A stretch of 64,000 nucleotides of DNA from a virus, in IMG/VR virus record IMGVR_UViG_3300027816_000081, positions 35,865 through 99,864 of that record. The stretch is one strand, 5' to 3'. The notes beneath the pieces were generated by a model. It had not been told where the DNA came from, ran no database searches, and worked only from the letters and a program-made list of their open reading frames with translations. Shown here piece by piece: positions 4,601 through 64,000 of this stretch. A program made the position numbers and the translations under genes. Every line of letters starts with the position of its first letter. Position 1 is the stretch's first letter.

Positions 4601-7600
4601 AACGAATGTCGGGAATGCGCTAGTTGCACTTGAAGTATTAGTCAACAAACTGCTTGCAGAAGCAGCATTTGCAACAGTTCCGGTTACGTTTGCACCAGGA
4701 ATATTACTTAGATTGGTAGCATTTCCTGAGAAAATATTAGCAGTAATTGTACCTGATGTAACTGTTATGTTTCCGGCGTTAATGTTTCCAGAAACAATCA
4801 ATGATGATATCGTACCAAGACTTGTGATATTTGGCTGTGCTGCTGTTGTTAAAGTACCAGTTAGTAAACTTGCACCGATTGTACCTGCGTTAGCGTATAC
4901 GTTTCCAAAAGTTGCAGTGTTTACAACTGTTAGTCCACCGCCTACACTAAGATTCCCAGTATTTTTGTTGAAGGTTAAGTTCGCATTACCTGCGTAAGTT
5001 GAGCCGCCATCATTGAAAATAACTTGTGTGTTAGCACCTTGTGCAGGAACTAATGTAGCGGTATCCCATGTTAGACTGCCTGAACCATTCGTTCTTAAGA
5101 AAGCACCGTTGGACCCGCCTGTAATAATTACGTTACTGTTGGGGCCTAGATTGCTCACACCAACTACGTTAAGACCAGTTAATGTACCCAAACTCGTTAC
5201 ATTAGGCTGCGCCGCTGTTGCTAGCGTACCGGTTACCAGTGTAGCAGAAATATTTCCTGCCGACAAATTACCTGTTACGTTAGCAGTGCCATTGATATTT
5301 GCACCAGTACCGGTTACGACTACAACGTTAGCATTTCCGGCGGAACTGATTCTCACATTGCTGTTAGCGTCAACTGTTACGTTTGAGTTACCGTTGACAA
5401 TGAAACTACCTGCACTAACTGCGATGTTAGTCAATAGACCACCGTCACCCTGGAAGAAGTTTGCAACTGCAAGATTGCCTAAGTTTGCATTTCCTGATGA
5501 TAGATTTCCAGAAACAGTCAATGAAGACAGTGTACCAACACTCGTAATGTTTGGTTGCGCTGCTGTAGTTACTGTACCTGCGGTAGTAGCTGCACCAGCA
5601 GTAGCAGCATTCAAGTTAGCAACTTGTGTAGTACTTGTTACTACTAGCGGAGCTGTACCAGTGGCAACATTTGATATTAGTTGAGGCGCAGTAACGTTAG
5701 CAGTTGCAAGAACTCGTGCTGTGCCCAAATTACCAACGTTAGCATTACCTGTTGCATTGAGTGTTCCTGCAATATTTGCACCGGTCCCGGTTACGACTAC
5801 AATGTTAGCATTACCGGCGGCGCTGATATTGACATTGCCATTTGCAGCAGGAATATTAACATTGCTGTTTCCGTTTGCCAAAGCACCTATGAAATTACCC
5901 GACGTAGTGTTTCCACTCACACTTAAACTGGTCAATGTGCCAACACTAGTAATGTTGGGCTGAGCGGCAGTTGTTACTGTACCTGCTGTGGTAGCACTCG
6001 TTGCTGTTGTAGCTGAGTTGGCAGTACCATAGAAATTACCAATGAAGAAATTAGCATTTACAGCATTTCCTAAGTTAGCATTTCCTGATGAGATATTTCC
6101 ACTAACAGACAGCGAAGTGAGAGTACCGACACTCGTAATATTAGGTTGAGAAGAAGTTGTTAACGTCCCACCTAACAATAGAGCACCGATTGTACCTGAG
6201 TTAGCATACATATTGCCAGCAGTTACATTACCCGTTACCGCAAGAGAAGTTAAAGTACCAACGCTTGTGATATTAGGTTGCGCTGCTGTTGTTACTGTGC
6301 CTGCTGTAGTTGCAGTAGTTGCACTAGGCACAGTGCCAGTCACGTTGGCGCCAGCTAGATTAGTAAGTCCTGCGCCATTACCAGTAAAGATTCCGGTATT
6401 TGCAGTGAATGCGACTGCGGTTACAGTTCCGTTTACACCAAGTGATGTTAGCGTGCCAACACTAGTGATGTTAGGCTGTGATGCAGTTGTCACAGTACCA
6501 GCAGTGCCCGCGGTAGCAGCATTCAAGTTTGCAACTTGAGTAGTTGATGTAACTACTAGTGGTGCAGTACCAGTTGCAATATTACTGATTAACTGCGTGC
6601 CTGAGATGTTTCCAGTAGCAATAACTCTGCCTGTACCTAAATTAGCAACATTAGCATTACCGGTTGCGTTTAACGTACCTGCTACGTTGACACCTGTACC
6701 AGTCATTACTACGACATTAGCATTTCCTGCAATGTCAAAATTGATGTTTCCGTTAGCAGCAGGAATAGCAATGTCTGAGTTGCCATTAGCAAGATTACCT
6801 ACAAAATTAGCAGCGGTGACATTACCCGTAACTGATAGACTTGTCAACGTGCCTACTGAGGTAATGTTTGGTTGTGCAGCGGTTGTTACGGTGCCGGCAG
6901 TAGTTGCACTTGTTGCTGCACCAGACAGAGCACCAACAAATGTAGTTGCAGTAATAGAGGCGTTACCTAAGTTCGCACTAATACCTGTGTTGATTACTGC
7001 ACTTGAGTTTCCATTCGCACTTGAGGTAGTGAATGTCGGATATACTGTTGTTGCAGTTGAGGTGTTCTGTAGAAGTGCGCTTGCATTTGTTGCTGCGCCT
7101 GCTGTGGCAGCATTCAAGTTTGCAACTTGTGTGGTTGAGTTGACAACAAGAGGAGCAGTACCAGTTGCAACGTTTGAGATTAATTGGGGAGCAGTGACAT
7201 TGGCAGTAGCTAATACTTGTGCAGTTCCCAAATTACCAACGTTAGCGTTACTTGTTACGCTTAATGCACCGGTGGTAGTTAAGTTGCCACCTGTGATATT
7301 TCCAGTTACGTTAGCGGTGCCTGTTGCAACAATTGATGTAGTTCCCAAATTACCAACGTTAGCGTTACCTGTAGCATTTAATGTACCAGTAATGTTAGCT
7401 CCGGTTGCAGTAACGTTCATAGTAGCGTTACTTCCGATTACTATGTTGAGGTTTCCGCCGGAGACAGGGATGTTGGCATAGCTAGTGCCATTCAATATTC
7501 TTGTATTTGCAACTGCACTTACGTTGGTAAGATTACTTCCATCGCCGTACAAGAAATTAGCATTTACTATATTAGCATTGATGTTGCCGGCAACATTAGC

Positions 7601-11942: not shown

Positions 11943-11950
11943 TATTTATT
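11943..11950 (-). promoter_or_regulatory. Late promoter octamer 4 nt before ATG 11938
   Basis: AATAAATA on the minus strand ends 4 nt from the start codon of the gp16-like gene, one nt short of the 5 nt seen at six other leaderless candidates. It may serve this gene or only downstream ones. Confidence 0.4.
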
Positions 11951-19462: not shown

Positions 19463-20248
19463 TTATCCTTGAATCCAAGTTAGTGGTTGTGAATAATCCT
19501 GATACTTACGTAGATCGTCAATCAATCTTTCTTGCTCGGCTTTAGATTCAGCCTTCATAGCAGAACCATTCAAACTTGTGCCGCCGCCTGGGCCTGCAAT
19601 AGTTCCAAACTTTTCACGAGCTTCACCGATGATGCCCTTCAGAACAGCAAGAGTATAATCACCAATCCAAACACCTGCACCAGGATCCTGAATAAGTTCA
19701 ATTTCAGGACGCTGGATATCAGCCCAGATAAGAATGCGTTCACCTGAACCCTTGAAGTCACGAACCACTTTCAGTAGTTTGGTTACTGGGTTAAACGTGT
19801 AAGTTACATAACCACCAAACATACGTGCTGCAAGTTCAACATAACCGGCATAGAAGTCGTATGTAGCCATACCGCCTGTATAGTTATAGTTCAACAGGTA
19901 AGTGTTCAGAATGGCACTAGAGAACGGATCAAACGCAGTAGAGCTAGGTCCAGTTTCAAGACCTACTGTTCTACGGAATAATGCACGAACGTTGATAAAC
20001 TCTTCTGGCAGTGTGTACTCATACACGTTCTTCTCAACACGCATAAGGGTATAACTTTCAATCGTTGCGTTCTGCGCTCTTTGACGATAAAGCTTTACTG
20101 CATAGTTGTATGCAGCTTCGTAATGGTCTGGATCAAGTTCAAGATCAATGATATCGCCGCCCAAACGTAAACGAAGGTTCTCAAAGAGACCTTCCTTAAG
20201 CTGTGTTAGGTCGTAGTTAGTTGGTGTTGCTAGTGGGTCTGCTGCCAT
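19463..20248 (-). CDS. 13: Neck protein gp13
   Basis: The 261 aa product matches the gp13 neck family: N-terminal helices with YNYAVKLYRQRAQ (near 48-60), EYTLPEEFINVRALFRR near 76-92, and the hallmark C-terminal block LGEAREKF-type segment (IIGEAREKFGTIAGPGGGTSLNG near 205-228). gp13 and gp14 complete the head-tail connector in T4. ATG 20248 has CAGGAAA and a late promoter upstream. The dNMP kinase promoter lies just downstream of its stop. gp14/gp15-like genes are found 3.3 kb away on the other strand. Confidence 0.88.
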   Translation of the reverse strand: MAADPLATPTNYDLTQLKEGLFENLRLRLGGDIIDLELDPDHYEAAYNYAVKLYRQRAQNATIESYTLMRVEKNVYEYTLPEEFINVRALFRRTVGLETGPSSTAFDPFSSAILNTYLLNYNYTGGMATYDFYAGYVELAARMFGGYVTYTFNPVTKLLKVVRDFKGSGERILIWADIQRPEIELIQDPGAGVWIGDYTLAVLKGIIGEAREKFGTIAGPGGGTSLNGSAMKAESKAEQERLIDDLRKYQDYSQPLTWIQG

Positions 20249-20267
20249 AATCGTTTCCTGTTAAAGT

Positions 20268-20275
20268 TATTTATC
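20268..20275 (-). promoter_or_regulatory. Late promoter for gp13
   Basis: GATAAATA on the minus strand 19 nt before ATG 20248; leader contains CAGGAAA. Confidence 0.7.
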
Positions 20276-20311
20276 AGGAAACGTCATGACCTTTATTCTC
20301 TTTTAGGGTTA

Positions 20312-27383: not shown

Positions 27384-28628
27384 TTATGCGTTGCCAATTT
27401 GTACAATTGGGTAAGGCTGTGCATTTGCTACGTTTGCAGCAGCGGCAGCATTGAAGGTTGAGAATGCCGGGTTAGCATTCTGCAATACAATGTTACCTGT
27501 TGCAACTGGACCTGAGGTTGCAGTGAACAATTCAGCAGTGTGATCGCTCAAGCTCTGAACCTTAACAGTTGCACTGTTAGCATAAGTTGCAGTGATTGTC
27601 ATTGTGTTTGGAGTCAATGCAGCATTAGCAACGTTAGCAGTGAAGCAAGCACCGGTTAGACCAGTGGTTGTTCCTGTAACGAGATACTTTTGCTTGCCCT
27701 TTTGACGAACAATGTAACCTGCTTCCGGGGTTGCATAGATATATGCTGCTCCAGAAAGATTTGCACTTGCATCATTTACGAGAAGTGTAGTATCCTGAAG
27801 TGCATATGATTCTGCATCTTCGTTAGACAATCCAACATTTGCTCCGCCTGGTGCCAATGACACGGTGAATGCAGATGCGTTAGGAATTGCCTTAACAAAG
27901 TAAGTAGTTCCGGCACTTAAGCCACCGATATCAGCAGTTAGCACGACTGGAAGATTTGCAGTCAATGTCTGTGCGTTTCCTACAGTAGTCAAGAAGTTGC
28001 CAGTTGCGGTTGCATTTGAAATTTCAATGTTTGCAAGACCGGTTGCAGTGTCAACATAACCTAGGGTTACTGGTTGACCGTTAGCAGCAACATACTGAAT
28101 TACTGAACCTGCTGCAACGTTGCCTAAGTCAGTACCTAAGCCACCTACTACGTTGCTTGAATCAGATGCATATAGAGTACCTTCTCCATTCTGACCAATA
28201 GCAACATTGCAAAGTACTTGCTTACCGAATAGTGCAGTGTTACCACCAACTACTGAGTAAGTGTTTGCGTTTGTTGCTGGCCATTGTGGACCAAGTGGAT
28301 TGTTGAAATACATATCAACAGGAGCAACAGTTGTTGAAACTGTGCCTGATGCGGTTGACAAGTCTTTTGGAGTACTGGTTGGGTTAGCATTAAGTGGAGT
28401 TTCAGAAACAGTGAATGTGCTGTTGTTGCCAGCGTTCACTACCTTAAGAATCCAGTACAATGTACCAGCTACTAGGCCACCGATGTTAGTTGCAGTTACG
28501 AAGGGCATACCTGCAATAATACCAAGATTAGTGAAGTTTGCATTGGTTGTAACTAAATCAGTAGAGTTGGTTGTGTTTGTGATTGTGATGACTGCCTGTG
28601 CTTTGGCAATCTTTAGTGGACGACCCAT
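27384..28628 (-). CDS. Virion/fibre-associated beta-rich protein (414 aa)
   Basis: ATG 28628 has AAGGAG. Two repeats of an IGGL.AGT.Y.(V/L)K sequence occur (near residues 48-62 and again near 232-246), each with flanking TVS strand patterns, so the protein is at least partly duplicated. Composition is Thr/Ala/Asn/Val-rich, as in adhesin-like structural proteins. It lies between the holin-like gene and the second fibre. A role as fibre partner or decoration protein is inference. Confidence 0.6.
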   Translation of the reverse strand: MGRPLKIAKAQAVITITNTTNSTDLVTTNANFTNLGIIAGMPFVTATNIGGLVAGTLYWILKVVNAGNNSTFTVSETPLNANPTSTPKDLSTASGTVSTTVAPVDMYFNNPLGPQWPATNANTYSVVGGNTALFGKQVLCNVAIGQNGEGTLYASDSSNVVGGLGTDLGNVAAGSVIQYVAANGQPVTLGYVDTATGLANIEISNATATGNFLTTVGNAQTLTANLPVVLTADIGGLSAGTTYFVKAIPNASAFTVSLAPGGANVGLSNEDAESYALQDTTLLVNDASANLSGAAYIYATPEAGYIVRQKGKQKYLVTGTTTGLTGACFTANVANAALTPNTMTITATYANSATVKVQSLSDHTAELFTATSGPVATGNIVLQNANPAFSTFNAAAAANVANAQPYPIVQIGNA

Positions 28629-28712: not shown

Positions 28713-28720
28713 TATTTATC
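28713..28720 (-). promoter_or_regulatory. Late promoter
   Basis: GATAAATA on the minus strand, 85 nt before ATG 28628, giving a leader of about 80 nt that holds the 28684-28706 hairpin. Confidence 0.65.
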
Positions 28721-28734
28721 TTTATTGCGAAAAA

Positions 28735-29157
28735 TTAAGGAGCCCAGGGTCTACCTTCAAGTAGTCCCAATGGGTGTGGGTTAGGAGTAGAAACGTTTCC
28801 TATATACTGTGAGGGCAATTCTGTAATATCGTAAACATTATATGGATTGCCATCTTGTGTTCTGTCTAGTGTTGCCAAATCTAATTTAGCAAGTTGTCTG
28901 TCCTGTAATGTAGGGAGTCTGCCTATTAAATTACCAGTGCCTAAAACAGAACCATCTATGATATTATAACTAACAAGAGTGTTGGCATCATCTAACACTT
29001 CTTCATTAAAATTGACATTATACCAAGTTGAATCAGTACCGGTCGCAGTGTCAATGGTAGATTTTAATGTGGCAACGGTAATACCATCACTGACTGTATA
29101 CTCATCAAACTGTCCCGCGTTCAATAAGCTTTGAACGGTGATAGTAATAGTTGCCAT
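28735..29157 (-). CDS. Fibre-associated protein (140 aa), unknown
   Basis: The start overlaps the stop of the 1019 aa fibre gene (TAATG), so it is translated by coupling. N-terminal strands (MATITITVQSLLNAGQFDEYTV) resemble a ubiquitin-like beta-grasp pattern with a following helix (TVATLKSTIDTATG). The C-terminal part is Pro/Asn-rich. Position directly behind a fibre suggests an assembly partner or adaptor, as T4 gp38/gp57 genes sit near fibre genes. No motif proves that. Confidence 0.55.
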   Translation of the reverse strand: MATITITVQSLLNAGQFDEYTVSDGITVATLKSTIDTATGTDSTWYNVNFNEEVLDDANTLVSYNIIDGSVLGTGNLIGRLPTLQDRQLAKLDLATLDRTQDGNPYNVYDITELPSQYIGNVSTPNPHPLGLLEGRPWAP

Positions 29158-32100
29158 TATAGTCTACCTACTGCGACCTCAATTATGCCCTCATGACCAT
29201 CAAAGTCTTGTAATGCTTTACCAATAACTGTACCGATTGACGGGGACATATTTGATTTTGCGAAGCCACCGCCGGCTGAAACAAGCATATCACCCTTAGT
29301 AATCTTTCCGCGAACTTTACATGGTACACGACCCTGTAGCGCAATTGCAGTTAATAATCCTGGACATGTAGAGTTCATTACATAGGCTGGGTTGGTAGAT
29401 ACGACACCGGCTACTCTGTTAGTTTCGTCTTCTGCTAGAGAGACTTCCTTTTCGCCCCCGAACATTAATACGGTACCCGGAGTATAAATGTCATCGGCTT
29501 CATAGTATTCTGCAAGGTCAGCGTAGGTAGCTTGCAGTCTGGAACCACTAGTCAGTGTCCAGTTACCTGTAATTGTGCCGGCTGTAGTGTTTGCACCAGC
29601 AGTGATGTTCGTTGTAGTTAGCGCGCCGCTTACATTTAATGAGGTGAGTGTACCAACACTCGTGATATTAGGTTGGGCTGCTGTTGTCACAGTACCGGCA
29701 GTAGTTGCACTAGTGGCACTTGATACAGTACCCGTTACATTAGCGCCCGCAACCAATCCATTGAAAGTAACATTACTTGCTGTTTGTGTGATGGAGCCAA
29801 CCGGGGTGCTTGCAGCATTGAAGAACGTCATTAGGTTAGTAACGTCAACTGTTGGCTGCAGGGCCAAACCATATAATGTGCCGCCGCCGGTAAATCTGAT
29901 ACCCACTGCACTACTTGCGCCACCAATTTGAGTATAACCTCCTATTTCAAGTGCATTGCTAGTAGAAGTCATACTAGTTTTACCTGATACAGTAAGACTT
30001 GATAGCGTACCGGTTGAGGTAATGTTAGGCTGTGCTGCCGTTGTTACTGTGCCTGCGGTAGTTGCTGAGCTTACTGTACCGGTAACATTTGCGCCGGCAA
30101 TTGCACTCAAGCCACTACCATTACCAGTGAATACACCAGTATTTGCAGTAATGTTTGCAGCAGTGATATTACCACTAACACCCAATGATGTTAATGTACC
30201 AACGCTTGTGATGTTTGGCTGTGCTGCTGTTGTTACTGTACCAGCAGTTGTTGCAGCGCCTGACAGTGAACCAACGAATGTAGTAGAAGTGACACTAGAT
30301 AGGCCATCAACAGTTGTAACGGTAGAACCTAACGTCAACGCCGTGCTACCTAAAGTTACACTTGCATTCGCTAGTCTTGCTTGAGCAAGAGTTCCTGTTG
30401 AAATATTACTTGCATTCAACGCAGATAGACCACTACCATTGCCCGTAAACACACCTGTATTAGCAGTAAATGCAGGGGCAGTTATTGTACCGGCTACGTT
30501 TAAAGCCGCACTGACATTGGTGTTAGTAGCGTTTAAGAAAATAGTAGCAGTATTTGATACTGATTGTATTCTAATACCAGTGTTTCCGCTTGCCCAAGGA
30601 GCAATAGTTAAGTTTGCATTTCCTATAGCAGACGAGTTGCCAAAAGTAATTAATGTATCGTCTGCTGCGGTCAAGGTATTGTATGATCCGGCACCCGCTC
30701 TAGGAATAAGTGCAATATCCTGAGTACCATTTACCGCTCTTATTATCTTAGTAATTGAAGCAGCGGCTGAGGAATCTGTAGACACTACACCAGTAGTACC
30801 TGAAACAGCAAGTGTAGTTAACGTACCAACACTAGTAATATTAGGTTGTGCTGCTGTAGTGAGTGTGCCGGCTAATAGTGTTGCTGATAGCGCACCAGTT
30901 GCAGCATTAAAAGATAAGTTTGCGTTGGCAGCTAATGCTCTGTTTCCAGTAGAACTACTATTCACAAATACTGGGAAGAAAGTTCCTGTAGTTTGGGCAG
31001 TTACTACTCCAAAATCAGACACGTTGGCATATGAAACATTTAAGTTTGCTACACGAGTAGTAGAAGTGACTGTTAGTGGTGCTGTGCCAGTAGCAATGTT
31101 TGATATCATCTGAGTTGAAGTTACAATACCTGACGCATTCAAGTTTCCAACGTTAGCATTGCCTACAATGCCTAGTACCTTAGGACTTGCTCCAAAGTTC
31201 CAAGTAAAGTCGGCATCGCCATCTAACAAATTACTGTTGTTAAATTGTACTGTAGTGTTTGAACCTGCTGCACCGCTGCCGCCTCCGCCCGATGATACGG
31301 ATGCAATTGCGCGGCCTCCGGTAGCATATACATTAGCTCCGGTCAACGTAGCCGTAGCTAGCACTTTAATGTTACCTGCTACACCATTTGCTAATAATTC
31401 TTCTGATACAGTAATCGTTGTTCCGCTAGGCTTAGCTTTAATGTAGTATGAAACATTATTTTCTAGTCCACTAGTACTCAAATCTCCCAAGAAAAGAACT
31501 TCTTGGTTTAGATTGAATACTGCTGAGTTACCTATTGTAACTCTATTAGTTGACGCAGATGTGGAAGTTGCAGTAGTATAAGAATATGTGTTATTAGTAA
31601 ATGCAATAGAATTTACCGGGGTAGTTAAGCTAGGATCACTGTACAGTGAGAAAGTATTAGACGTTAATACATTAGCATAATAAGTATTACCATTTAGGTC
31701 AGTCATTCCTGCTGCATTTGTGATTGTGATTTCTGCGCCGTCAGTAAAGAAGTTGTCCTGCGTGGTAGTGACTACAGCTGGATTAGCAGTAGTAACGTTC
31801 TGAATAAAAGCGATAACAGTTGATTTAGGTGTCCAAGACAAATTACCCAAACCATCAGTCTCAAGAACATAACCGATTGCGCCGCCCGTAATCTTCACAT
31901 TAGATGCATCGCCTAATGTGATCAAGCCGCCGGCATCGCCGCCGCGATTGACCCAATTGTTTCCGTCAAATGTTAAGACTTGCCCATCAGCAACCGTAAC
32001 GTTACTGATATTTAAATTACCAACCGAACCATTGAGTTGGCTGTAATTAATCTGAGAGTATGAAGTCAATACTTCAATATTTTCGTTGGGGGTGGTTTTA

Positions 32101-32216
32101 CCGATAAAGAGACGCTTAGCGTCACTTGCCCAACCAAACTCTGCTTCGTCTAGTTGAGGTAAGTCAACTAGATTACCGGAACGTTGCTGAATCTTTGAAA
32201 TTTGGATAATTGCCAT
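29157..32216 (-). CDS. Second repeat tail fibre protein (1019 aa)
   Basis: The N-terminal region (MAIIQISKIQQRSGNLVDLPQLDEAEFGWASDAKRLFIGK) is a distinct attachment domain. The middle contains four AAQPNITSVGT-like repeats. A segment TKIIRAVNGTQDIALIPRAG and the last ~130 residues (ATYADLAEYYEADDIYTPGTV...VAGVVSTNPAY) closely match the giant fibre at 1694-8200, so the two are C-terminal paralogues with different N-termini. Its late promoter runs into a perfect hairpin directly before the ATG. Likely a fibre or baseplate-attached adhesin. Confidence 0.85.
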   Translation of the reverse strand: MAIIQISKIQQRSGNLVDLPQLDEAEFGWASDAKRLFIGKTTPNENIEVLTSYSQINYSQLNGSVGNLNISNVTVADGQVLTFDGNNWVNRGGDAGGLITLGDASNVKITGGAIGYVLETDGLGNLSWTPKSTVIAFIQNVTTANPAVVTTTQDNFFTDGAEITITNAAGMTDLNGNTYYANVLTSNTFSLYSDPSLTTPVNSIAFTNNTYSYTTATSTSASTNRVTIGNSAVFNLNQEVLFLGDLSTSGLENNVSYYIKAKPSGTTITVSEELLANGVAGNIKVLATATLTGANVYATGGRAIASVSSGGGGSGAAGSNTTVQFNNSNLLDGDADFTWNFGASPKVLGIVGNANVGNLNASGIVTSTQMISNIATGTAPLTVTSTTRVANLNVSYANVSDFGVVTAQTTGTFFPVFVNSSSTGNRALAANANLSFNAATGALSATLLAGTLTTAAQPNITSVGTLTTLAVSGTTGVVSTDSSAAASITKIIRAVNGTQDIALIPRAGAGSYNTLTAADDTLITFGNSSAIGNANLTIAPWASGNTGIRIQSVSNTATIFLNATNTNVSAALNVAGTITAPAFTANTGVFTGNGSGLSALNASNISTGTLAQARLANASVTLGSTALTLGSTVTTVDGLSSVTSTTFVGSLSGAATTAGTVTTAAQPNITSVGTLTSLGVSGNITAANITANTGVFTGNGSGLSAIAGANVTGTVSSATTAGTVTTAAQPNITSTGTLSSLTVSGKTSMTSTSNALEIGGYTQIGGASSAVGIRFTGGGTLYGLALQPTVDVTNLMTFFNAASTPVGSITQTASNVTFNGLVAGANVTGTVSSATSATTAGTVTTAAQPNITSVGTLTSLNVSGALTTTNITAGANTTAGTITGNWTLTSGSRLQATYADLAEYYEADDIYTPGTVLMFGGEKEVSLAEDETNRVAGVVSTNPAYVMNSTCPGLLTAIALQGRVPCKVRGKITKGDMLVSAGGGFAKSNMSPSIGTVIGKALQDFDGHEGIIEVAVGRL

Positions 32217-32246
32217 AAGTGTATTCTTTACCTACTGAATACACTT
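32217..32246 (-). promoter_or_regulatory. Hairpin directly before the fibre start codon
   Basis: Perfect 10 bp stem AAGTGTATTC/GAATACACTT with a 10 nt loop containing AGTAGG, the only Shine-Dalgarno-like sequence. The 3' arm abuts ATG 32216. The 5' arm begins at the end of the late octamer, so late transcripts would lack most of it. Confidence 0.65.
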
Positions 32247-32253
32247 ATTTATG
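32246..32253 (-). promoter_or_regulatory. Late promoter for the second fibre
   Basis: CATAAATA on the minus strand, 29 nt before ATG 32216, adjoining the hairpin 5' arm. Confidence 0.7.
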
Positions 32254-36251: not shown

Positions 36252-36259
36252 TATTTATG
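36252..36259 (-). promoter_or_regulatory. Late promoter
   Basis: CATAAATA on the minus strand, 43 nt before ATG 36209. Confidence 0.7.
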
Positions 36260-60476: not shown

Positions 60477-62024
60477 TTAGCCCAAGACGGCAAAGAATGG
60501 TAACGGTGCAATCACTTCATCGTGGTCTCTAATTTGGCTTTCTAAATCGCCATGGAAGTCTGCTAACTGTGTCATCATACGCACTGCCAGGAGAGTTGAC
60601 ATTACTAAGTCATCTGTGTCTCCGATCTTAGCAGCGTAACTGCCGCCGCTGGCAACAAACGCTTTCAATTCGCTAATGAGAGAGCGACTATGTATGGTCA
60701 TCTTCTTTGATTCTAGCAGTGTTTTGAACTTAGCGCAAGCAGCTAGCTTAGGCTTATTAGAAGTGTTGAACCCTCTACGTCCTTTGCCCTTCTCAGATAT
60801 AAAAATGCCAGGAATATTTGACTCACCATACTCGTTGAGTGAAACAACCGCAGCCTCACCTACGCCATTATTTTCAATGCTGTAGTAAATGCTATTTGGC
60901 TCTTTTGTTATTTCTGAGATATATTTGCAAATCTCAGCAAGTAACTTAATCTGACTAGGAATATCAGTCTTATTGTGTTTCCATTCACCGATCTGTGTAG
61001 TAGTGCTTGCGTCAAATACTTGAATAGCAGCCGGATCGCCGCCTGTACCCAATGACGGATCAAGTGCAACTACATAAATTCTACCCTTTTCGGGCTGTTT
61101 ATACCAGCGAACCTGACCTAATCTATTGATAGGTTCAATGCCTTCAAGCATTACTAAGGTGTTTGGATTGATAAGTGTTTCATCTGCGATAATGAACTCA
61201 CAACCGATTTCACGATTGAATCTGTCTTCACCTAACTGAGCCTTCATCTCAGCAGCCCATTTCTCATCTCTGCCGGGCTGTTCGTGCCAGTATGCTCTGT
61301 AGGCTCTAAAGCCGTTGACGCCTAACTCAGTTGTGTTACCAAACTCGTCTTCGGTCTTGTTAGCCATCTTCCAGATAAGAGCGAATTGATCTTCGTCGCT
61401 GTTTGGTGTTGATGTAATGATTGCTTTACCACCAGTTGATAGCGTAGGAGTAATAGCAGTCCAGAATTCTTGTGCGATTGAGGGGCGAACGAACGCAAAT
61501 TCGTCAAGGTATAGTAGTGTGATAGACATACCACGACCTGTGTTTTCAGTCGTAGTAGCAGACACGATACGGGAACCGTTCTCAAAGTCAAGTGAGCCTT
61601 TGTTGTATGTAGTTACCCCGGCTTTGATGTGGTCCGGGCAGTTTTCATATGCATAACGAATACGCTGCATAATTTCTTGGGCACCGGTGTACTTGTGTGC
61701 TGCAATTAGAATAGTAGAGTCAGGTACGAACATGGCGTACCAAAGCAAATACCCTGCTGCCGATGTTGACTTACCTGACTGTCTAGGCATTAGACTGATA
61801 CTGAAACGATAGCGATGGTATGTGTCAATTAGTCTTTCTTGATATGGCCAAGGGTGATAGTTCATTGATCCTTTAGTAGGATGCTGAATCATGAAGAAGT
61901 TATCCATGAAGTATAGATAACCCGTTTCAGGGTCGCAGCACTTCATAAACTCACCAAGTTCCTTTTGGTTCTTGAATACAGTTTTCTTGTATGGATCCTT
62001 GATTAGTGTTGGTGTGTTTGCCAT
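60477..62024 (-). CDS. 17: Terminase large subunit gp17
   Basis: 515 aa (T4 gp17 is 610). ATPase motor: LMPRQSGKS Walker A (78-86), LLYLDEFAF Walker B (170-178), ITSTPNSDED coupling motif (203-212). The RNase H-like nuclease has VVALDPSLGTGGDP (313-326). It packages and cuts the DNA concatemer through the portal. ATG 62024 has no Shine-Dalgarno and lies 5 nt after a late octamer. The gp16-like subunit is far away at 11.5 kb. Confidence 0.96.
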   Translation of the reverse strand: MANTPTLIKDPYKKTVFKNQKELGEFMKCCDPETGYLYFMDNFFMIQHPTKGSMNYHPWPYQERLIDTYHRYRFSISLMPRQSGKSTSAAGYLLWYAMFVPDSTILIAAHKYTGAQEIMQRIRYAYENCPDHIKAGVTTYNKGSLDFENGSRIVSATTTENTGRGMSITLLYLDEFAFVRPSIAQEFWTAITPTLSTGGKAIITSTPNSDEDQFALIWKMANKTEDEFGNTTELGVNGFRAYRAYWHEQPGRDEKWAAEMKAQLGEDRFNREIGCEFIIADETLINPNTLVMLEGIEPINRLGQVRWYKQPEKGRIYVVALDPSLGTGGDPAAIQVFDASTTTQIGEWKHNKTDIPSQIKLLAEICKYISEITKEPNSIYYSIENNGVGEAAVVSLNEYGESNIPGIFISEKGKGRRGFNTSNKPKLAACAKFKTLLESKKMTIHSRSLISELKAFVASGGSYAAKIGDTDDLVMSTLLAVRMMTQLADFHGDLESQIRDHDEVIAPLPFFAVLG

Positions 62025-62042: not shown

Positions 62043-63665
62043 TTAAGTTATCTCTTGCCATTCTATGCTTGCGTACACATCTTGGTTAGTACCAGTAGTA
62101 GCCATTGTGATCACATACTCATACATTACCCCAGTAAATGGTTCTCTTTCAAGTTGATACTCAAATCCAAATGCTTCTTGTACCGGTGCACTACTACTTT
62201 GATTGCTTGAGTTAATAAATGATTGTTCAGCAATGTCGCCACTTACTAACGTGGCAGGTGCAAGATTGTATTGTACTGCACTATCTGGTGCACTATCTAC
62301 CCAAGTACCACCTGAGGTAATGGCTCGTTTAAAAACACGGTATTGGAATATGCTCTGTGCAGCCGGCACTAGTGAATAGTTGATAGGAATAACAACTGCA
62401 TCTGACATTGTGCTTTTTAGTCTTATTGCTATTACTGGTTTAAAACTTAGATCATTTGGCAATCTTACCGGAGCACTAAGCGTATGCGATGCTGCTCTTG
62501 GGTTACCTGAACCTGATAGCTGGAAGCCGCCCTCACTAATCACACTGGCACAAATCTGTCTCATCAAGCTTGGACTTGCGGTTGCACCAGTATTCGTAAG
62601 TTCACAACGCAATGGTAGTGTCGCAGTGGTCATATACGTAGTAGTGTTATCAGTAGTCGGAGTGCTTATCACGTTTGCGTGATGGAATGAGTGACAAGTG
62701 ATATAAACGCCGTCAATAATGAAGCCCACTCTAACAGTTCCTACGCCCAACCATTCAACGTCAATCCAAAAAATCTGATCTAGCGCAGGGTTTAGTGTGA
62801 TGCCGCTTGGGTTATTAGCCCCGCCGGCGCCATTTAGTCTGTCACCGTTCCATTGACTTTGCGGGATTCTATCTTCTACAAGTACACCTGTGCTACTACT
62901 TCTGATTACCATGTTGAGCGTAGTGCCGGCAACTTCAAAATATATTCCGTTCTGTGCTCCGAAATATCCGATTCTTTGGCGAAGATTTGCTTTGGGAGTA
63001 CTCATACTGAATGAAGAAAGAATCAACAAACTCTTACCTGGTTGGTATGGGAAGGTCTTAGTTGTTTCTCGTAGAACACTGTCTCCTGACCCTTGTCCTA
63101 CTGTAAGTTCATATGAACTTGAGTTGGCATCATACTCAACATCTGCGGTGCCAGTGATACTATTACTAAATTGTTCATGATCATAATATCGTGCTTGCGT
63201 ATCATACAGGGTGTATGGGTTACTAACTCTTAGTCTACCAAAAGCATCTGTCGCTTCCTGAGCAAATGATACTTGTGCAGTACCAGTAATAGCAACATTA
63301 CCTTCAACCATCCAAGGATCAGTGCCCTGAGTAACTTCAACACTGTTGTCAATATTCACATTACCAGTGACGTTTGCGTTGACATTACCTTCAACCATCC
63401 AAGGGTCAGTACCCTGAAATACAGTAACATTACCTGCATCTATGTTGATATTGCCACTGACGGGCATTGTGTTGCCAGAAACATCAATGTTTCCGATTGC
63501 ATCTACTGTAACATTGCTAACGATTACGTTACCTGCAATAGTAACGTTACCGCCCACAATGCTTGACCGCATGTAAACATTACCGGTTGTTTCATCCAAC
63601 CCTAAGGCTTGAGTGATATTGCGTAAGTACCAAGGGCTCACATTTGCTGGATTAGGCTCGGCCAT
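62043..63665 (-). CDS. Tail fibre or appendage protein (540 aa)
   Basis: Begins MAEPNPANVSPWYLRNITQALG. Residues 25-125 are beta-helix-like GNVT/VSGN repeats and contain a direct repeat QGTDPWMVEGNV. The rest (DAFGRLRVSNPYTLYDTQARYYDHEQFSNSI, then WIDVEWLGVGTVRVGFI) looks like a concanavalin/lectin-type beta domain found in several virion proteins of environmental phages. Likely a receptor-binding or capsid-attached fibre. ATG 63665 follows a hairpin that contains the only Shine-Dalgarno-like GAGAG. Confidence 0.75.
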   Translation of the reverse strand: MAEPNPANVSPWYLRNITQALGLDETTGNVYMRSSIVGGNVTIAGNVIVSNVTVDAIGNIDVSGNTMPVSGNINIDAGNVTVFQGTDPWMVEGNVNANVTGNVNIDNSVEVTQGTDPWMVEGNVAITGTAQVSFAQEATDAFGRLRVSNPYTLYDTQARYYDHEQFSNSITGTADVEYDANSSSYELTVGQGSGDSVLRETTKTFPYQPGKSLLILSSFSMSTPKANLRQRIGYFGAQNGIYFEVAGTTLNMVIRSSSTGVLVEDRIPQSQWNGDRLNGAGGANNPSGITLNPALDQIFWIDVEWLGVGTVRVGFIIDGVYITCHSFHHANVISTPTTDNTTTYMTTATLPLRCELTNTGATASPSLMRQICASVISEGGFQLSGSGNPRAASHTLSAPVRLPNDLSFKPVIAIRLKSTMSDAVVIPINYSLVPAAQSIFQYRVFKRAITSGGTWVDSAPDSAVQYNLAPATLVSGDIAEQSFINSSNQSSSAPVQEAFGFEYQLEREPFTGVMYEYVITMATTGTNQDVYASIEWQEIT

Positions 63666-63698
63666 AAAAAAATACTCTCATATTGCTATGAGAGTATT
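63666..63698 (-). terminator. Hairpin-terminator overlapping the late promoter and RBS
   Basis: Perfect 12 bp stem AATACTCTCATA/TATGAGAGTATT, 4 nt loop, followed by a T-run running up to ATG 63665. The late octamer GATAAATA (63695-63702) overlaps the 5' arm and GAGAG lies in the 3' arm. Confidence 0.85.
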
Positions 63699-63702
63699 TA
63701 TC
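63695..63702 (-). promoter_or_regulatory. Late promoter inside the terminator hairpin 5' arm
   Basis: GATAAATA then C on the minus strand. The start point falls in the hairpin 5' arm, so late transcripts would lack part of that arm. Confidence 0.65.
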
Positions 63703-63705
63703 TTA

Positions 63706-64000
63706 TTACTTGATATCTAAGGGTCGTGCTTTAGTAGCAACAATACAATAGTATGTTTCTTTAGCCTTAGTAGTCTTTTCAGGGTCTTCTGGGTCGGGCA
63801 TGTTGAGGTCAAACTCAAGATTGTTGAAGTTGTCAATGTTGAACCCGCAACGAATTAACAATGCAGCCAACTGATTTGCACCAAAGATACTATAGTGATT
63901 AAGATTGAATTCGTGCTTGCGATCACAATCAGGTGCAGGGACTTCAATATAAATCTTTGCACCCTGCTTCAATACACGATTGTATTCCATCAATGAGAAG
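63706..64000 (-). CDS. SAM-dependent methyltransferase, N-terminus cut by window edge
   Basis: The frame is open to the right edge and ends at 63706. The visible part MEYNRVLKQGAKIYIEVPAPDCD matches the E..RVLKPGG...EVP block of class I methyltransferases, followed by NHYSIFGANQLAALLIRCGF. The SAM-binding motif lies outside the window. Target unknown; phage methyltransferases may modify DNA, glycans or lipids. The hairpin at 63666-63698 ends its transcript. Confidence 0.75.
   Translation of the reverse strand, partial: FSLMEYNRVLKQGAKIYIEVPAPDCDRKHEFNLNHYSIFGANQLAALLIRCGFNIDNFNNLEFDLNMPDPEDPEKTTKAKETYYCIVATKARPLDIK

Follow-up and report, generated by a model that had tools for sequence, protein, structure and literature searches.

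A candidate promoter-broken hairpin before a virion gene, with two sister hairpins, in a distant relative of phage T4

A gene 49-like leader beside the terminase gene

In T4 genes e, soc, I-TevI and segB and in Aeh1 mobE, the ribosome-binding site (RBS) is sequestered by a hairpin in early or middle read-through RNA, and RNA made from a late promoter is without the 5' arm of that hairpin (PMC3014915, PMC2988022), a mechanism that has been shown experimentally for gene e and I-TevI. The leader of T4 gene 49 (endonuclease VII) belongs to a class described in PMC3014915: the 5' arm begins with the octamer AATAAATA, the 3' arm carries a Shine-Dalgarno (SD) sequence near the AUG, the RBS is hidden in the long RNA and the late RNA begins past the 5' arm. 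The mechanism itself is therefore known from T4 genes e, soc, 49 and I-TevI. Genes e, soc and 49 had been named as precedents in the first-pass annotation of the locus described here, correctly according to both papers, and our scan recovered the gene 49 leader, which has the same layout in sequence.

The DNA analyzed (the window) comprises the final 64 kb of an IMG/VR virus record of 99,864 bases. Its terminase shares ~50% identity with the terminases of Pseudomonas phages PA5oct and Paride and of Sinorhizobium phage Phosso, which places the phage in the T4 superfamily, distant from T4. On the minus strand, a gene for a 540-aa virion structural protein (phrog_1645, 62043..63665; gene 63665, after the position of its ATG) is followed by TerL (60477-62024) and preceded by the 3' end of an upstream gene (63706..64000), whose stop codon near 63706 lies immediately ahead of a T4-type late promoter octamer, GATAAATA (63695..63702), that is conserved in orthologues. 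The minus-strand sequence here reads ...TAATAAGATAAATACTCTCATAGCAATATGAGAGTATTTTTTTATGGCC and comprises a 5' arm AAATACTCTCATA (63687..63699), a 4-nt loop GCAA (63683..63686), a 3' arm TATGAGAGTATTT (63670..63682) and a run of seven T up to the ATG (63666..63672; three paired, four beyond the stem), a possible terminator U-tract. As had been noted from the letters alone, the octamer overlaps the 5' arm, with which it has AAATA in common, and the sole SD-like stretch, GAGAG (63675..63679), a weak SD nine bases ahead of the ATG, lies within the 3' arm. The first-pass annotation had also described a perfect 12 bp stem with a T-run directly before the ATG; stem, T-run and position stand, but AAATACTCTCATA/TATGAGAGTATTT forms 13 perfect Watson-Crick pairs, not 12, and includes only three G-C pairs.

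A chance match of the octamer can be dismissed, because it precedes many structural genes on the minus strand with a bimodal octamer-ATG spacing; the exact sequence TATAAATA was not found in the 64-kb window, where the first base of the octamer is mostly G or C. The hairpin RNA has a minimum free energy of -18.6 kcal/mol (z = -4.7, no shuffle equally good), and none of 5000 dinucleotide shuffles matched the stem in a test that counted only stems with most of the 5' arm ahead of the predicted late start. Compared with T4 gene 49, gene 63665 differs in encoding a virion protein beside the terminase, in its unrelated arms and in a longer U-run directly before the AUG. Taking layout, folding and conservation together, we consider it likely that the hairpin works as in T4 gene 49, as a promoter-broken riboregulator.

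Predicted late start and translation of the two RNAs

The T4 late promoter octamer spans positions -13 to -6, its first base being at -13 (PMC2988020), and in this register the predicted late start of gene 63665 (+1, the sixth base after the octamer) is 63689 on the minus strand. In this genome and in relatives, octamer-ATG distances peak sharply at 5 nt, with another hump at 18-26 nt; a 5-nt peak would be expected if +1 were the A of the ATG, and thus agrees with the T4 register. The octamer is so positioned that late RNA from the predicted start would be without most of the 5' arm, 10 of whose 13 bases lie ahead of 63689. We infer that late RNA starts at about 63689 and keeps approximately three of the 13 pairs while losing ten. 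The earlier claim that late transcripts would start inside the 5' arm and could not form the full hairpin is thus supported by the T4 register, from which the start is predicted.

We computed the RBS opening cost, the cost of exposing the 15 nt ahead of the ATG plus the start codon, for both RNAs. For gene 63665 it was 17.1 kcal/mol in the read-through RNA versus 4.3 kcal/mol in the late RNA, and for two further genes of the record with ATGs at 32216 and 20248 it was 12.8 versus 3.5 and 18.6 versus 1.4 kcal/mol, whereas 4.1-7.9 kcal/mol was needed in read-through RNA for the genome's remaining leadered late genes. A weak helix (-4.1 kcal/mol) can still form across this region in the late RNA of gene 63665.

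In a near-identical relative (G005), DHFR- and ThyA-like genes, recognized by eye from protein starts, are among the co-directional genes further upstream of the hairpin; MazG-like and acyl-carrier-like genes lie upstream of gene 20248, and an exonuclease gene lies immediately upstream of gene 32216. Metabolic genes of such kinds (DHFR, thymidylate synthase, MazG and others) are early or middle genes in T4, and the genes upstream of all three hairpin genes look to be of early or middle type. Since they are co-directional with the hairpin genes, read-through RNA into the latter is expected. A gp55-type late sigma factor is encoded in nine of 12 relative records, including G005, and was not found on the window's own contig, which is an incomplete fragment.

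In the scheme that these features suggest, read-through RNA from the upstream early or middle genes would carry both arms, whose pairing would bury GAGAG and the approach to AUG 63665, and the virion protein would not be made from it. RNA polymerase with gp55, acting at the octamer, would then produce a late RNA that begins inside the 5' arm, and the few pairs left would make ribosome loading possible. Given the U-run, part of the read-through RNA would likely terminate at the hairpin. Start site, read-through, repression and termination are all inferred here from sequence.

Sister hairpins and their conservation in relatives

Three of the 14 leadered octamer sites in the record (63702, 32253 and 20275) have stems that beat all 400 shuffles; with 5000 shuffles, the matching counts were zero, zero and three, respectively. 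The arm sequences of the three hairpins are unrelated to one another. At the second site (minus strand), the octamer (32246..32253) is followed by a tail-fibre-like gene (29157-32216), and the 3' arm of a 12-pair hairpin, ATAAGTGTATTC/GAATACACTTAT (32215..32248), extends into ATG 32216. At the third, also on the minus strand, the octamer (20268..20275) lies mostly in the loop of a nine-pair hairpin, CGTTTCCTG/CAGGAAACG (20252..20283), whose 3' arm is the SD AGGAAAC of the gene for the neck or head-tail adaptor Ad2 (19463-20248, ATG 20248). Both sister hairpins are without a T-run. A search across loci with a fixed hairpin pattern returned no match because the loops vary. Two other minus-strand hairpins, at 36259-36220 and 28720-28680, lie just past a predicted late start and hence are retained in late mRNA; the one near 28720 was rejected as not of the same design, since it comes after the late start and a separate SD follows it.

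Orthologues of gene 63665 retain octamer and stem; their arm sequences differ, their loops measure 3-7 nt, and the hairpin core is nearly invariant. Compensatory changes are visible in CTCAC/GTGAG (L013 and L020), in CTCTCT/AGAGAG (L015) and across the series CTCTCATA/TATGAGAG (window), CTCTCATA/TGTGAGAG (L002) and CTCTCACA/TGTGAGAG (L094). A MAFFT alignment of this stem gave no significant covariation (203 of 500 shuffles), because the core hardly varies and the loops misalign; the comparative support for this hairpin consists of the few visible compensations and an arm-swap test among related, non-independent sequences. Among the orthologues of gene 32216, pairing holds in 90% of cells and six of ten pairs have changed on both sides, with a covariation score of 0.373 versus 0.174 in shuffles; none of 500 shuffles and no slid pairing reached 0.373. 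The arms of gene 20248 orthologues change together (GTTTCCT/AGGAAAC, TTCCGAT/ATCGGAA, CCCCGATAA/TTATCGGGG), the alignment itself being left out of the count because of a one-position offset between two sub-types. Swapping arms between orthologues weakened the stems in all three families (p <= 1e-4, with related sequences non-independent). The hairpin is absent from orthologues of gene 63665 that are without the octamer (L022, L028), and also from L021, which has the octamer and a better SD (AAAGGA).

At the same threshold, G005 and a 244-kb relative (G001) have three such sites each, among them sites at a baseplate wedge gene and at an HNH endonuclease gene. In an HNH endonuclease-like gene (L312:3451-4206; G001 near 223413), the SD GAGGGG pairs with an arm upstream of the late octamer, as in T4 I-TevI and Aeh1 mobE. 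Before a phrog_12050 virion structural gene (L295 near 16846, L302 near 2165), the octamer pairs with an inverted copy just before the SD. Four loci (L132, L146, L142 and L150) have the same octamer-hairpin and the same upstream gene end followed by a different gene (MFDPFKQ...), so the element persists through gene exchange. The octamer-hairpin layout was not found in the Ad2 leaders of the cultured phages Atu_ph07, Phosso, PBECO4, Vibrio 2.275.O and Paride, nor at the S-RIM8 homologue of the 540-aa virion gene.

The register, the folding energies, the conservation and the two sister genes with compensatory changes all favour the earlier proposal that read-through RNA would be untranslatable and that the late promoter would release the RBS. 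At least three virion genes appear to be kept silent in long early messages by RBS-hiding hairpins. Compared with T4 e, soc, I-TevI and segB and with Aeh1 mobE, the design is found here, from sequence alone, at three or more virion genes of a distant T4-superfamily clade.

Termination, rival readings and leaderless late genes

The part of the first-pass annotation that had read-through RNA terminating at the hairpin fared less clearly. A U-tract follows the stem and most relatives retain the T-run, but the stem is not GC-rich and two lineages (L011, L017) keep the stem and have lost the T-run; termination here is plausible. In L148 and L154, octamer, stem and T-run are retained with TerL directly next and no abutting ATG, which points to a function in addition to RBS hiding, whereas L011 and L017 argue the opposite way. 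In these two TerL-adjacent loci (L148 5924-6010, L154 1829-1915), tandem octamers, each with its own overlapping hairpin, lie between the upstream gene and TerL, and the 540-aa structural gene is absent. In L055 and in cultured phage Paride a GC-rich, T-tailed stem has the octamer in its 5' arm and lies far from the start codon, with no RBS hiding. The Paride example, before the tail sheath gene (L315 near 36965) and likewise recognized by its sequence only, resembles the hairpin of gene 63665 in coming after an early-type gene, here for a dNMP kinase, and in having a T-tailed stem whose 5' arm shares bases with the octamer; it differs in being GC-rich and in a start codon ~100 nt away. Leaders at 6277 and 26011 of Paride are further candidates for the promoter-broken design. 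Together these patterns indicate that RBS hiding and termination are separable, and the hairpin of gene 63665 probably combines the two. A literature search, which reached little of the subscription literature, found no description of a promoter-broken RBS hairpin combined with a terminator. The novelty lies in the clade and its virion genes, in the comparative evidence and in the terminator with which the hairpin is likely combined.

The T-run and the stems of L148, L154, L055 and Paride would also fit an element whose main role is intrinsic termination of the upstream operon; the octamer would then simply lie in its A-rich 5' arm, and RBS hiding would be a by-product of tight packing. We regard this as unlikely, given the three G-C pairs among 13, the T-less stems of L011 and L017, and the sister hairpins that are conserved with compensation yet have no T-run. 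That the inverted repeat overlaps a promoter, and that autorepression of the I-TevI type is known at late promoters (PMC2988022), could point instead to a DNA palindrome bound as an operator by a late-promoter regulator; with loop lengths from 3 to 7, G-U pairs on the RNA strand (L002, L038) and unrelated arms in the three genes, such a role is highly improbable. Slighter still is the prospect of a 5'-end hairpin stabilizing the late mRNA: another late unit does have a hairpin just past its octamer, near 36259, but at T4 spacing the late RNA of gene 63665 would be without 10 of the 13 bases of the 5' arm. Least probable of all is a chance palindrome in an AT-rich spacer, although the leader is AT-rich and several A-T pairs come from the octamer and the T-run, for the shuffles (0 of 5000), the conservation and the recurrence at three independent genes speak against it, and the comparative data already refute it. 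The promoter-broken riboregulator is the reading that we retain.

Late-only translation may have a second form in this clade. At octamers +18443, +23508, -60471, -12755 and -11950 of the window the ATG follows exactly 5 nt after the octamer (4 nt at 11950), as it does 5 nt after the late octamer at 27801 and 4414 of G000, and across loci approximately 25 of 90 octamer-linked ORF families have a median octamer-ATG spacing of 4-6 nt, with six expected (binomial p 6e-10). Such spacing implies leaderless late mRNAs; the Paride stretches have no 5-nt peak. We tentatively propose, as a possibility somewhat short of an even chance, that, genome-wide in this clade, the late promoter itself confines translation of virion genes to the late phase in two ways, by promoter-broken hairpins, some of them also terminators, and by leaderless late mRNAs, in which the AUG would be at +1 and the octamer would occupy the place of the SD in read-through RNA.

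If the retained reading is right, the T4 trick of excluding late proteins from early messages would be widely conserved in uncultivated relatives and would serve not just lysis and homing endonuclease genes but core virion genes (neck adaptor, tail fibre, terminase-adjacent protein) as well. The compensatory changes would provide a sequence test of a mechanism hitherto shown for few genes, and the cultured phage Paride may be a source of candidates for direct tests.
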